DNA of 64,000 bases, from positions 1-64,000 of the forward strand of contig CALWDE010000003.1 in NCBI GenBank assembly GCA_944376605.1, given 5' to 3'. A program made the translations under genes and the position numbers. The notes below the pieces were generated by a model. The model was not told where the DNA came from, did not search any database, and saw only the letters and a list, made by a program, of their open reading frames with translations. Positions within the stretch are counted from its first letter, which is position 1, and the number at the start of each line of letters is the position of its first letter. The DNA is from an uncultured Bacilli bacterium (GTDB lineage Bacteria; Bacillota_I; Bacilli_A; RFN20; CAG-826). Positions 4,257 through 30,054 of the stretch are shown piece by piece.

Positions 4257-5108
4257 TTATCTTTCAAATTTCTTGCTTCCGATTGTCTTATGAAAATTCA
4301 TGATGAGTCTTTCCACATCAGGATCAATCATGAAATATAAAAACTTATCTTCAAATTCTGATATCTGTTCTTTTTGATAGAAAGCTTCCGCGATTGCTCC
4401 CGCCATCGCACTCGTGGTGTCACAGTCTCCGCCAATCGATACACAGTTTCTAATCGTGTCTTCTAACCCATTAGAAATTAAAAAACAGAAGATTGCTTGA
4501 GGAACTGATTTTTGGCAAATTTCTGAAAAACGATAAGTATGGATAAGTTCCTCATAGTTTAACTGCGCGATCTCTGGATAATAATCGCGAATCATTCTGT
4601 CTTTGATTTCTTCTTTTGAAGCACCATGCAAGGCTAAATAAATCGCCATTGCTACTGCTTCAGCTCCTTTTATTCCTTCCGTATGGTTATGTGTAATTTC
4701 TGTAACTGTTTTCGTAAGGATTTTTAGTTCGCCTTCAGTGTTAGCAATCCAGCTAACGGGAGAAATTCTCATTGCAGAACCATTTCCATAAGAATTGTAA
4801 GGTTTAGCTATATGACCGCTTTTTTGGCACGCTAAGCACCATTCATAAAACATCGCGCCAAAACCTGCTCCTTTATGGCTTGACCATATTGTTACAAACT
4901 CTTTCGCTAAATCTTCTTTTAAATCATTTAACGATTTTTGGTCGTATTTAATCGGATAATGCTTCATCAATGCTTTCGCAACAGCAATTGTTAGATAAGA
5001 ATCATCCGTCATTCTCATTTTGTTATTTAAAATATCAAAAGTCTTAGTCTTACATGGCTCAAATTCATAAATAGAACCAACCATATCTCCAATAATTGCT
5101 CCTAGCAT
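4257..5108 (-). CDS. ADP-ribosylglycohydrolase family protein
   Basis: 283 residues of the DraG/ARH fold. The dinuclear-metal signatures are visible: GAIIGDMVGS at the N-terminus, MTDDSYLTIAVA (the TDD motif) around residues 33-44, and GGDCDTTSAMAGAIAEAFY near 230. Family members remove ADP-ribose from proteins, nucleic acids or small molecules. The substrate here cannot be read from sequence. A cluster of TTTTGCC/GGCAAAA sites lies 90-150 bp upstream. Beyond those sites is a remnant of a Fic (AMP-transferase) gene. The two are neighbours, but a functional link is only a guess. Confidence 0.88.
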   Translation of the reverse strand: MLGAIIGDMVGSIYEFEPCKTKTFDILNNKMRMTDDSYLTIAVAKALMKHYPIKYDQKSLNDLKEDLAKEFVTIWSSHKGAGFGAMFYEWCLACQKSGHIAKPYNSYGNGSAMRISPVSWIANTEGELKILTKTVTEITHNHTEGIKGAEAVAMAIYLALHGASKEEIKDRMIRDYYPEIAQLNYEELIHTYRFSEICQKSVPQAIFCFLISNGLEDTIRNCVSIGGDCDTTSAMAGAIAEAFYQKEQISEFEDKFLYFMIDPDVERLIMNFHKTIGSKKFER

Positions 5109-8560: not shown

Positions 8561-8732
8561 AGCTTCTATTGATTTAAGTTTTCTAATCTATAAAGAATTC
8601 TTTACCTATTGAGAACTCTTTTAAGATAACGTGTTATGGTTATTAGATAGGTTCCTCTTGACTCCTGTCTAAGAAATCTTTTTCTACATTGTGTGCTTAA
8701 AACATTTTAAAATATTTTTACAAAAAAGTATT

Positions 8733-10184
8733 ATGGAATTTTATATTAGTGACAAAGCACCAATCGACCCGGATGAAATACGAAATAAGTTTATTGAGTA
8801 TTTTGAAAATATAAATCAGGGTGATTTTGCTAGATACGAAACTGGCTATGACAAAGACATTAGTAGTACAAAAACGTTTTATTATGGCATGTATTTAGCG
8901 AGGGGAAAAACGCCGATATTGTCCAACGATTTTTTGTCTTTTTTGCGGAACAAAAGAAATCTTTATGTTTTAACAACTTCTCATTCGGATTTTTATGTTA
9001 CTTTTGGTTACCATTATAAAATTAATTACACTGTTTCTTATCAAACAACAGAAAGTGAAATAAGTGGTTTTAAAGTCAGCGACGCTCCTTTTTATTCATT
9101 CCATAAATATGATGTAGATCCAGTTTATTCATCATCAAATGTTTTAAAATCTTTTAATGAAACCAGAAGCCACAGCGCAGTTGGCATTGTCAAAATAGAT
9201 TATTCAGGTAATTTTTGTGGATTAAGCAAAACTGACGAGTGTGATTCTTTATCTTATTGGCCGGTAAATCCTAATCGACAAGCCTATTTTAAAGGCTCTT
9301 ATAAAAAGACAAGTGTAGAAGAAATAAAAAAGCTTACCTATCTTAAGCAATTTTCTGTCCCTTCAAATAGCAATATATCCGATTATATCAAAGGTTATTG
9401 TGGTTATTTAAGTGATCACTATAGCGTTATACGCGAAGACAAAGCAAAGATAAAAGATGAATATTATAGCTATAATATTTACGAAATTTCGGATGACAGT
9501 ATATCGATTTCAAATAGCAATTTAATTTCTACCTTTTATCTTGTTTGCGTTAACTCTTATACCTATAAAATCAAATTTACTTATAAGCAAAAAACATATG
9601 AGTATGATTTTGATACTTTGCCTCCTCCTGATAAAATTTTCTTGGAATATAGTCCAGAATTTTCTAAGTATCATAAGGAAGCTTTTTCTATACTCTGGGA
9701 CCAAAAATTTAAAACAGAAAACAATGAAGAAGAAAACCTGCAAAAGACAAATAGTTTGCAAAAGTTATTTCATCGGCGTAAGACCGGACATCTTGTCACA
9801 ATGCTTCTAATAACGGCATTTTTCCTTACCTTTTTTACCTTATCGATGGTTTATCAGGATTATTTAATAAATTACGCGGGATTAATGCCTTGGCTTCGTT
9901 CTATGCTTACTTGGCCAATATGTCTTTATCAAATCGTTCCGCTTTTATTATTCGGTATTTCCTGTTTTTTATATTCTCATAGTCAAACCGTTTTCAAAGA
10001 TTATCGTTTTTCGCGGAACAAAAACTATTTGGGCCAAGTTGAAGTCATTGAAGAAGCACAAATAAAAAAGTTAAAAAGAAAAGATTCTATTTATTCAGCA
10101 ATCCTTATTGTTCTTGAGGTGTTTCTTGCTATTGGCATGATTTTTCATCTTTTATTGTGGATTATCATATTCATGAGTTTTTAA
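8733..10184 (+). CDS. unknown protein with large soluble domain and three C-terminal membrane segments
   Basis: About 483 residues. I chose the ATG at 8733 (MEFYISDKAPID) over a GTG at 8691; neither has a clear ribosome site. Residues 1 to about 360 look soluble, rich in Tyr, Ser and Lys, with no signal peptide and no motif I recognise. Three hydrophobic segments follow (MLLITAFFLTFFTLSMV; ICLYQIVPLLLFGISCFL; and one ending the protein), leaving a tail-anchored topology with the domain probably in the cytoplasm. A positively charged stretch (LFHRRKTGH) precedes the first segment. It stands alone. Confidence 0.65.
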   Translation: MEFYISDKAPIDPDEIRNKFIEYFENINQGDFARYETGYDKDISSTKTFYYGMYLARGKTPILSNDFLSFLRNKRNLYVLTTSHSDFYVTFGYHYKINYTVSYQTTESEISGFKVSDAPFYSFHKYDVDPVYSSSNVLKSFNETRSHSAVGIVKIDYSGNFCGLSKTDECDSLSYWPVNPNRQAYFKGSYKKTSVEEIKKLTYLKQFSVPSNSNISDYIKGYCGYLSDHYSVIREDKAKIKDEYYSYNIYEISDDSISISNSNLISTFYLVCVNSYTYKIKFTYKQKTYEYDFDTLPPPDKIFLEYSPEFSKYHKEAFSILWDQKFKTENNEEENLQKTNSLQKLFHRRKTGHLVTMLLITAFFLTFFTLSMVYQDYLINYAGLMPWLRSMLTWPICLYQIVPLLLFGISCFLYSHSQTVFKDYRFSRNKNYLGQVEVIEEAQIKKLKRKDSIYSAILIVLEVFLAIGMIFHLLLWIIIFMSF

Positions 10185-10252
10185 GAAAATACTGCATAAA
10201 AATGAATCGAAAAATAAAGAACTTCTGTTTCTTTTTATCTCTGCTTTTTCTT

Positions 10253-26954: not shown

Positions 26955-28385
26955 ATGAAATGTAAATCATGTGGAACGGAAAACGTTGAGGAAGCTATCT
27001 TTTGCCAAGAATGTGGGGCAAGGATAGATGGCAAACTTTTCTGTTATCGGTGCGGGAAATTATCTCCTGAGAATAGCCGCTTCTGCATTCATTGCGGAAG
27101 TAATCTTCAAGCAGGATATTTACCTCGCACGCAAAAATTAGATGAGAGAAAAACTGCTATTTCTTCTCAGGAAGGGGCAGTTGCTACTCTTCATGAAGAA
27201 GGCGAAACACAAAGCGGGCCCGCTCCAGCTACCTCGATGTCTTATCCTGTTGAGACAGCTACTTCTAAACCAAGAAAAGTAGGAAAGAAAGTATCTTCTG
27301 TTTTAGGGCTTATCTCTTTTATTTCAAGTAGCTTAGTTCTTTTAATGAGCTTTATCTTCTCCTTCTTAATTGGAATGGTTCCTTATCTATCTAGTGGCGG
27401 TCAGTCCATTTCTTCTGGAGGAGGATTCACTCTTTATACTTATTTCTCCGATGTCTATAACGTGATTACTCCTGGGGATTCGGCAGCTTATGGTTATGCT
27501 GTTCCTGTCTTCTGCACGCTCATTGTTGTTTGCATCTTAGCTGCCGCAATTGGTGTATTTGTCTTGGGCTTATTAGCTTTCATCCGTTATTTAAGACATA
27601 AGGAAGGAAGTATTACACGTTACGCGGTTTATTCCTATTTTGTTTATCTTGGTTCTGTCATTATTTTCTCTTTGTTAAGTACTTCTAGCACATCTTCACT
27701 TAATGTGACGCTTTCTTTTATTCTTGATCCGGCGACAATATGCGGAGTTACCATTGGCGCTATCTTCCTTGTTGCTTCTATTGTTCTTGATGCGGTTGCA
27801 AAAGGCGTAGAAGGACCAGTGAAAAGTTACATTGCAAAGTCCTGCTTTACAGGAGGCTACTTCGTACTCGGCCTTGTTTGCCTTATTTTGCTTGGCACAG
27901 GATTATTCTCTGCGTCCATGTCTTCAGCAAAATCTTCTGCAGGCATTTATGTTTATGGACAAGTCTTAGCACAAAATGCCGCAGCCTATTATCCTTTGCC
28001 CGATGAACAGTGGTATTCCTTTGTTGGGAATTATATTGGCTCTATCATCTTTATTGTTCTCTTCCTTGCTCTTGCTGTTGCTGCAGTTGTCTTATTTAGC
28101 AAACTTATGAGAGATGGATTTAATCAGTTTGGTTATGCTTCCTTAAAGAAGATGTCTATCACTGGAATTGTCCTTTCTTCTGGATTTATTCTTTTTGGAC
28201 TCTTACAAATCATTCACGATTACACGACCGCTACCTTCATGATTTCTAGCGGCTATATTTTCGATTTAACTACACCCATTTTGCTTATGGTATTTGGGGC
28301 ACTTCTTCTTGCTCTTAGCATTACCACTTTCTGCATCCGTGGCCTTTTTGAGAAGGATGAAAAAGCAGAAGAGAATCTTGCATAA
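26955..28385 (+). CDS. double zinc-ribbon multi-pass membrane protein
   Basis: 476 residues. Two N-terminal zinc ribbons: CKSCGTENVEEAIFCQECG (4-22) and CYRCGKLSPENSRFCIHCG (30-48). A Ser/Thr/Pro linker to about residue 115 and then about eight hydrophobic segments follow. Proteins with this layout are common in Bacillota and usually of unknown role. The ribbons should face the cytoplasm and may bind protein or nucleic acid. Ribosome site AAGGAG about 8 nt before the ATG; a strong terminator follows. Confidence 0.8.
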   Translation: MKCKSCGTENVEEAIFCQECGARIDGKLFCYRCGKLSPENSRFCIHCGSNLQAGYLPRTQKLDERKTAISSQEGAVATLHEEGETQSGPAPATSMSYPVETATSKPRKVGKKVSSVLGLISFISSSLVLLMSFIFSFLIGMVPYLSSGGQSISSGGGFTLYTYFSDVYNVITPGDSAAYGYAVPVFCTLIVVCILAAAIGVFVLGLLAFIRYLRHKEGSITRYAVYSYFVYLGSVIIFSLLSTSSTSSLNVTLSFILDPATICGVTIGAIFLVASIVLDAVAKGVEGPVKSYIAKSCFTGGYFVLGLVCLILLGTGLFSASMSSAKSSAGIYVYGQVLAQNAAAYYPLPDEQWYSFVGNYIGSIIFIVLFLALAVAAVVLFSKLMRDGFNQFGYASLKKMSITGIVLSSGFILFGLLQIIHDYTTATFMISSGYIFDLTTPILLMVFGALLLALSITTFCIRGLFEKDEKAEENLA

Positions 28386-28403
28386 TTTATCTTTTTATAC
28401 AAA

Positions 28404-28431
28404 AAAAGCAGGCATTTTGCCTGCTTTTTTA
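28404..28431. terminator. bidirectional rho-independent terminator
   Basis: AAAAGCAGGCA (28404-28414) / TGCCTGCTTTT (28418-28428), with As before and Ts after, so it works in both directions. On the plus strand it ends the zinc-ribbon gene; on the minus strand it would end the large RNA candidate. Confidence 0.9.
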
Positions 28432-28955
28432 ATGCGCTGAGTTTCCTCATACCTCTCTTTTGTTCTAGGTTTGTTCGGTCATATGGCAATCAAAGCCCGA
28501 GGGCGCGGTGGCGACCCGCGACCGGCAGAGATTATGTTGAGCACCCAATGGGCCATAAGACGGGTGGTACCGTCCAACTTTCAGGGAGCGCCGGGATCAC
28601 AAATTCCTTTTTGCCCTCACGAGACACCCCTACTTATACTAGGTCAACGCATTATAGATGAGTTACCCCATCATCAGCTCGGAAGGCTTATTTTGAGAAT
28701 ACCAAGCTTCTACCCGCAGTTTCTCACACTGTTGGAACCTGGCGGCCATTTCTAGCACTTGCGCCTCTGCATCAACCTATACCTTAACCATCAACAGGAA
28801 AGGCAACATATCCTAGAAGGCGATTTTACTCACCTCCCTTAGTTTTACTCTAAGGCCATTCGCTATAGAAGAAGGTATCCCTCCTTGAACGCTCATCTAG
28901 GTTACGTCCCAGCGGTCAGCAAGACCAACTTCACTGGGTTGCGCAGTTTTATATT
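28404..28955 (-). ncRNA. large structured noncoding RNA candidate (about 550 nt)
   Basis: From about 28440 to 28955 base composition jumps to clearly GC-richer than its surroundings, no credible protein is encoded, and hairpins are dense. Examples: CCCAG...CTGGG enclosing GGTC/GACC (28908-28938), CCTTAG/CTAAGG (28837-28855), GATGA/TCATC (near 28657-28676), CAGT/ACTG (28717-28731), GACGG/CCGTC (28559-28574) and CGCGG/CCGCG (28505-28520). Read on the minus strand, 5' TGCGC (near 28941) can pair with 3' GCGCA (near 28433), closing the molecule just before the terminator. RNase P, tmRNA and SRP RNA signatures are absent. The size is near that of ROOL-class RNAs; identity is unproven and strand is inferred. 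Confidence 0.65.
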
Positions 28956-29057
28956 AAGGGGAATTCAAGATAGAGATAAGGTGCAAAATAATTTTTTACT
29001 ATGACCCTATATTTTATAGAAAATCATAGATTAAAACGATATTTATAGATAAGATAT

Positions 29058-29076
29058 AGTTCCTAAAAAGGGAACT
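29058..29076 (+). promoter_or_regulatory. hairpin overlapping the ribosome site of the WYL-like gene
   Basis: AGTTCC (29058-29063) and GGAACT (29071-29076) form a perfect inverted repeat. The only Shine-Dalgarno candidate (AAGGGA, 29069-29073) lies in its 3' arm, 4-8 nt before the ATG at 29080. It could hide the ribosome site in RNA or be a DNA operator for autoregulation. Confidence 0.5.
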
Positions 29077-29079
29077 TTT

Positions 29080-30054
29080 ATGAAAAATTATGAGAAAATT
29101 AAAATTAATTTATCGTACCGAACCTATTCTCTTTTACTAAGTGATATGGAACGCTTTCTTTTTTACCGCGGGGAAGAGGTAAATAAGAATAAGTTTTTAA
29201 ATACTCTCATTTCTCATTACTATCCCTTTCTTCAAAAAGAGGCGAAATCCAATCAAGAAAAGGTCATTTCTACATTAGAAGAAAATAACATAAAGCACAC
29301 GAAAGCCTTCCTTTTAAGTGAGCAGCTTCTTCCTTATATGTCCTTAAAGGCTGCTTCTTTTCTTGAGAAAAAGAAAAACTTTTCTTTGTCCTTCCGTCCT
29401 ACAAAACTAACAAGCCAATATTTAGATTATATGGAAGAACACGATTTAAAAAATCGTTCATTATCCGATTACTTAAGGCATTTATGTGATTGTTATGCTT
29501 CCTTATTACCAAGTGAACGAGAATATCTTATTTTTTATGACCGGGTTAAAACAATTGAAGACGCTATAAAGGAGGGGTACTGTATCAAGATTCTTCTGGA
29601 TAAGAAAAAGGTTTTATTTCGCCCTTACTTTTTAACTTCTACCAAAGAACAACTTTATATGTATCTCATCGGGGAAAAAGATAAGGTAATCTATTCCTTG
29701 CATCTATATAAATTGGGGGACTGCTATCTTTCTTCTTGTCCTTCTAAGTTTTTAAAAGAAGAAAAAGAAGAGATGGATAAAGTGATAGAAAAGGGTGTGG
29801 ATTATTTTTTAAGTGAAAAAATGAGTATCAAAGTAAAGTTCACTCCAAAAGGAAAAAAGATGCTCCGCACCTATTGGCATAATCGTCCTGAACTGCTTCT
29901 AGAGCAAGATGGTATCTATGTTTTTGAAGGCCCTAAGTTACAAATGTTTAATTATTTTGTGCAGTTTGGGAAAGAGGTAAATATTCTCTATCCTTCTTCT
30001 TTTAAGAAAAAACTCTATCGTTTTTATCATGAATCATGTGTCTCTTTTTCTTAA
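29080..30054 (+). CDS. WYL-like domain protein with ribbon-helix-helix-like N-terminus
   Basis: 324 residues. The first 50 residues (KIKINLSYRTYSLLLSDMER, then NKNKFLNTLISHYYPF) have the spacing of a ribbon-helix-helix DNA-binding unit, repeated weakly at about 105-145 (FSLSFRPTKLTSQYLDYMEE). Residues about 165-320 resemble a WYL domain: FRPYFLTSTKEQLYMYLIGE, IYSLHLYKLGDCYLS, IKVKFTPKGKKML and FVQFGKEVNILYPSSFKK. WYL proteins sense nucleotide or nucleic-acid ligands and often control defence genes. It is divergent from the large RNA candidate, with about 125 bp between them. The call rests on pattern resemblance only. Confidence 0.6.
   Translation: MKNYEKIKINLSYRTYSLLLSDMERFLFYRGEEVNKNKFLNTLISHYYPFLQKEAKSNQEKVISTLEENNIKHTKAFLLSEQLLPYMSLKAASFLEKKKNFSLSFRPTKLTSQYLDYMEEHDLKNRSLSDYLRHLCDCYASLLPSEREYLIFYDRVKTIEDAIKEGYCIKILLDKKKVLFRPYFLTSTKEQLYMYLIGEKDKVIYSLHLYKLGDCYLSSCPSKFLKEEKEEMDKVIEKGVDYFLSEKMSIKVKFTPKGKKMLRTYWHNRPELLLEQDGIYVFEGPKLQMFNYFVQFGKEVNILYPSSFKKKLYRFYHESCVSFS

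Follow-up and report, generated by a model that had tools for sequence, protein, structure and literature searches.

The window, a 64,000-nucleotide stretch of DNA from an uncultured Bacilli bacterium, contains a full-length ROOL RNA on the minus strand, and a gene for a WYL1-like protein is encoded divergently beside it. The same divergent pair recurs in nine genomes. On balance we favor the interpretation that transcription of chromosomal ROOL is controlled by this dedicated WYL1-like (RHH-RHH-WYL) regulator; the regulation itself is inferred, in the absence of expression or binding data.

A full-length chromosomal ROOL RNA

A cmscan search with the Rfam models identifies minus-strand positions 28424-28957 as ROOL (RF03087), with a score of 143 bits against a gathering threshold of 99.1 and E = 1e-29. 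The match spans the whole covariance model (positions 1-574), the RNA is 534 nt long, and a genome-wide scan found a single copy in the 1.18 Mb genome. Most full-length members score higher (187–217 bits); the ROOL of G111, a genome of the same genus, scores 146 bits. ROOL is a giant bacterial RNA that forms RNA-only hollow cages larger than the ribosome, and the cages assemble without protein; according to the cryo-EM study, neither its function nor a protein partner is known (PMC12286853).

A preliminary description, made from the sequence alone, had placed a gene-free, GC-rich block with ornate hairpin folding at 28404-28955, and these characteristics held. The G+C content is 0.42–0.53 within the block compared to about 0.26–0.39 on the near flanks, the internal open reading frames are short with TTG starts, and the minimum-free-energy fold has z = -4.2, with none of 100 shuffled sequences folding equally well. 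The proposed closing pair TGCGC/GCGCA is helix 1 of the ROOL alignment and covaries. The coordinates required correction, to 28424-28957 on the minus strand for the RNA and 28401-28431 for the terminator. RNase P, tmRNA, 6S and rRNA, which the description had considered absent, are ruled out as identities by the lack of any Rfam match. Of its guess at a ROOL- or OLE-class RNA only the first part held, as neither OLE nor GOLLD was matched by Rfam models in the window, or in the block at E up to 1. The description had also stated that a known Rfam family would remove the novelty of the RNA, and this is the case: the class is not new. The covariation test that it had called for showed strong covariation.

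In that test, the window RNA was aligned with eight other ROOLs. In eight of these nine the WYL1-like gene is adjacent, and in the remaining one, from G106, it lies 3.1 kb away; the ninth adjacent pair, in G038, was excluded as divergent. The structure omitted the pseudoknots P10/P13 and the intermolecular kissing loops. Double-sided changes were found in 65 of 102 pairs, compared with 33 in shuffles and 19–22 when the structure was slid along the alignment. 92% of the cells pair on this structure, and the covariation score is 0.52 versus 0.24. The structure was derived from the same alignment, which biases the test in its favor. Because the effect is large and the Rfam match is independent, the existence of a structured RNA is little in doubt, and the block is a real full-length ROOL on the minus strand.

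The 3' end of the RNA is marked by an intrinsic terminator, AAAAAAGCAGGCAAAATGCCTGCTTTTTTT (minus strand, about 28431-28401), read directly from the sequence as a 13-bp stem with a T run, in agreement with the strong minus-strand terminator proposed earlier. It was missed by the terminator scanner because the T run belongs to the stem, and it is paired in the minimum-free-energy fold. The terminator is bidirectional and could also serve the plus-strand gene at 26955-28385. At the other end, an AT-rich -10-like element, TTAATATAAAAC (28941-28957, minus strand), lies directly before the closing stem TGCGC, and most relatives have TATAAT/TACAAT-like boxes at this position; a promoter scan found no sigma-70-type promoter for ROOL on the minus strand.

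The window ROOL resembles ROOL env-120 and the Enterococcus faecalis ROOL of the octameric cages in its full-length model match, similar length, helix joining the 5' and 3' ends and 3' terminator, and differs from them in its short variable linker. Whether it assembles into a cage can only be inferred. Its genomic setting is also different. Published ROOLs come from phages and prophages, often in the vicinity of tRNA islands, and have no known protein partner (PMC12286853), whereas the window copy is chromosomal, lies among housekeeping genes (rbfA, ppa and a TilS/TtcA-like gene) and has a WYL1-like gene alongside. No tRNA was detected in the window by a tRNA scan, and the usual setting of ROOL in a phage or a prophage near tRNAs is not met. 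PHROGs, Pfam and tRNA scans gave no sign of a prophage beside ROOL in the window, and a similarity search against phage records yielded no match.

The WYL1-like gene beside ROOL

The WYL1-like gene (29080-30054, plus strand; 324 aa) is divergent to ROOL, with 122 nt separating its start from that of the ROOL model, confirming the earlier observation of a divergent WYL-like gene about 125 bp away. The protein by itself has no Pfam or NCBIfam match, and two of its relatives have weak WYL/WCX matches. An hmmsearch of the PDB with a profile of ten relatives gave 6oaw, RspWYL1, as the sole match (E = 4e-23, profile positions 7-325), indicating two ribbon-helix-helix (RHH) motifs, a WYL-like middle and an RspWYL1-like C-terminal domain. 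AlphaFold, given three sequences, produced only a poor model (pLDDT 49) that was kept out of fold searches; the sequence profile is thus the basis of the domain assignment.

RspWYL1, an accessory protein of type VI-D CRISPR-Cas13d, consists of two RHH motifs, a WYL domain and a C-terminal dimerization domain, and prefers ssRNA to DNA (PMC6547453). The profile match covers all of these parts over nearly the whole length, but the mapped ssRNA-binding arginines are not kept in the window protein, and its gene adjoins that of a large noncoding RNA. Binding of ssRNA by RspWYL1 depends on R131 and R133; in alignments inspected by eye, the corresponding positions are not occupied by Arg in the window protein or in G111, G113, G038 and G148, and most of the mapped WYL/C-terminal lysines have been lost from this family. 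K6 and K8 are kept in the first RHH strand, and residues of this kind are common there among DNA-binding RHH proteins. No Cas13d open reading frame was found among those neighboring the WYL1-like gene at this locus. A WYL1-like homologue with 25% identity also occurs beside collagen-like genes in a sequence classed as viral (IMGVR_UViG_2890564350_000003, positions 1-1023 of L044).

Divergent ROOL/WYL1-like pairs were found in nine genomes (G000, G111, G192, G180, G113, G194, G195, G190 and G038) among a sample of 24 chromosomal ROOLs, two of which were not classified by neighbor, namely L037, a fragment, and L075, where the match starts at the first base. By the called starts, the spacing from the ROOL model start ranges from 113 to 171 nt; the start in G192 is uncertain, as the longest open reading frame there extends into ROOL, and translation probably begins downstream of the GTTCC palindrome described below. 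The pairs span two families, with G180 belonging to the other family, and share flanking genes only within a genus. In the genus of the window, ROOL is kept in three species near the same genes. The pairing with ROOL requires three changes on the WYL1-like protein tree, compared to a mean of 7.7 for shuffled labels, none of 500 shuffles being as low. These three changes could also be gains plus losses, and the G038 protein groups with a clade whose members face a gene of about 700 aa. The named ROOL-bearing relatives are uncultured gut and rumen Bacilli (Erysipelotrichaceae, Bacillales, Bacilli). About a third of the sequence-pattern matches in genome contigs were in unrelated bacteria and were not counted as ROOL. 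No paper naming both ROOL and WYL was found in an open-access literature set from which most subscription papers are missing, the first reports of ROOL among them. The recurrent link to a regulator is likely the new part of our results, without certainty of priority.

A palindrome, GTTCC-N7-GGAAC, is located at 29059-29075, just before the WYL1-like start codon, and represents a candidate operator. G111, G192 and G180 have it in the corresponding position, and the 1.18 Mb genome of the window contains it once, with 0.02 occurrences expected per window. Because it lies nearer to the regulator start than to ROOL and is missing from the g26 and G038 pairs, it may serve autoregulation only. Its absence from these pairs also leaves the operator site and the sign of regulation uncertain.

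The position occupied by ROOL was further characterized by a survey of eighteen relatives of the WYL1-like gene without an adjacent ROOL. In sixteen of them a divergent gene lies opposite: RtcB in 4, DUF2828/DUF7788 in 4 (with RtcB following DUF2828 in 2 of these), an unnamed family of 705–735 aa in 6, and other genes in 2. The genome G190 contains three WYL1-like paralogues, which face ROOL, a gene of about 700 aa and DUF2828, respectively. Since the ROOL-less relatives mostly face divergent genes, ROOL appears to stand in the place of a target under local regulation.

In two of the surveyed loci (L113 11316-13999 and L117 5172-7870), the DUF2828/DUF7788 (vWA-like) and RtcB genes facing the WYL1-like gene overlap by a few bases and probably form one operon, conceivably an RNA-repair system under a WYL regulator. 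The 705–735-aa family (L042 6909-9116, L108 5176-7293, L110 10790-12907, L111 7436-9610, L115 310-2484 and L116 10316-12490) is consistently divergent to WYL1-like genes and has no significant Pfam or PDB match. DUF2828 was considered as a relative of Ro60/TROVE and the family of about 700 aa as a relative of TerD; PDB sequence searches found nothing in support of either, and neither is claimed.

Proposed regulation of ROOL and alternative explanations

The preliminary description had suggested that the WYL-like protein could be a regulator or partner of the RNA, and the recurrent pairing supports a link of this kind. In the mechanism that we propose, the WYL1-like protein would probably bind the 122-nt shared intergenic region, with GTTCC-N7-GGAAC near its own start as the candidate operator. 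Ligand sensing by the WYL and C-terminal domains would then repress or activate ROOL at the minus-strand promoter; DNA binding, the direction of regulation and the signal are all inferred. The transcript would end at the 28401-28431 terminator and presumably fold and assemble like other ROOL RNAs. As RtcB RNA-ligase genes lie opposite related regulators, the trigger may plausibly be a signal of RNA damage, translation stress or phage attack.

WYL domains are predicted to act as the ligand sensors of defense systems (PMC4012209). In Salmonella, the rtcBA operon responds to damaged tRNAs, and some RNA-repair operons of the RtcR-rtcBA kind include noncoding RNAs (PMC7790460). The RtcR-rtcBA operon with Rsr and Y RNAs likewise has a ligand-sensing regulator encoded opposite RNA-repair genes, but here an RHH-WYL protein takes the place of the CARF plus sigma-54 activator, and ROOL is the noncoding RNA, with no ligase gene at its locus. 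The RNA-repair link of the ROOL regulators is a possibility resting on guilt by association, not proof. The exchange of ROOL and RtcB opposite related regulators nevertheless provides a functional hypothesis for ROOL. A bolder possibility is that ROOL in the chromosome, switched by WYL1-like regulators, acts as the effector in a stress response to RNA damage or phages. Upon RNA damage, its cage would then protect, store or sequester RNAs or parts of the ribosome.

The main rival to regulation is a role of the WYL1-like protein at the RNA itself: it might bind ROOL as a structural or functional partner, for example in loading, capping or filling the cage. The ssRNA preference of RspWYL1, the only solved relative (PMC6547453), and the persistence of the gene pair across differing neighborhoods speak for it. 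We consider it unlikely, as R131/R133 and most of the mapped lysines are not kept while K6/K8, as are common in DNA-binding RHH proteins, are retained, relatives are arranged divergently in the same way opposite protein-coding genes, and ROOL cages need no protein to assemble (PMC12286853).

Two further explanations have very little in their favor. The WYL1-like gene and ROOL could be functionally unrelated passengers of mobile or defense-rich regions, given that most descriptions of ROOL are of phage and prophage copies (PMC12286853) and that WYL proteins are associated with defense systems (PMC4012209). This is difficult to reconcile with nine loci of one divergent geometry whose flanks differ between genera, with their three places on the protein tree, or with the housekeeping flanks of the window and its lack of tRNAs. 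The window ROOL could also be a functionless remnant of an old prophage, next to a regulator that acts only on itself. Its score below that of most full-length members and the palindrome at the regulator start are compatible with this view, but the strong compensatory covariation, which includes the nearest relatives, the intact closing stem and terminator, and the conservation in three species near the same genes argue against it.

ROOLs without a WYL1-like neighbor

No WYL1-like gene adjoins ROOL in other genera of this family and order. An XRE (HTH_3) protein of one family is instead encoded convergently downstream of ROOL in all 12 loci with sufficient 3' flank, mostly within 1 kb and at 2.7 kb in G010. 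Upstream of these ROOLs, 37–83 nt before the model start, is a 19-bp palindrome near GAGGACA-N5-TGTCCTC, about 21–24 nt before a TATAMT-like box where the box is visible. Only 3 of 28000 shuffled upstream regions reached a palindrome of this quality. The core GGACA-N5-YGTCCTC occurs upstream of ROOL in 10 of 10 XRE-type genomes searched, two of which have one additional site, and in a genome-wide search in none of 8 WYL1-type genomes; a reversed control pattern was absent from all genomes searched. We infer, without expression or binding data, that chromosomal ROOL has two unrelated kinds of dedicated local regulator. Two such locus-specific regulators, together with their candidate operators, make it genetically testable when and why ROOL is made. 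In G021 (contig 64, L037 18766), a second GGACA-N5-TGTCCTC lies about 220 nt upstream of the palindrome at ROOL and is followed by another promoter-like stretch.

The viral ROOLs in our collection have neither an XRE neighbor nor the GAGGACA-N5-TGTCCTC palindrome, and those of L045-L048 and L050 are located among tRNAs. One of these viral sequences, L045 (IMGVR_UViG_3300018068_000002), has ROOL at 4262-4815, tRNAs and, at 8676-10199, a DUF2828/DUF7788 gene, a member of the family that faces WYL1-like genes in chromosomes and sometimes precedes RtcB.
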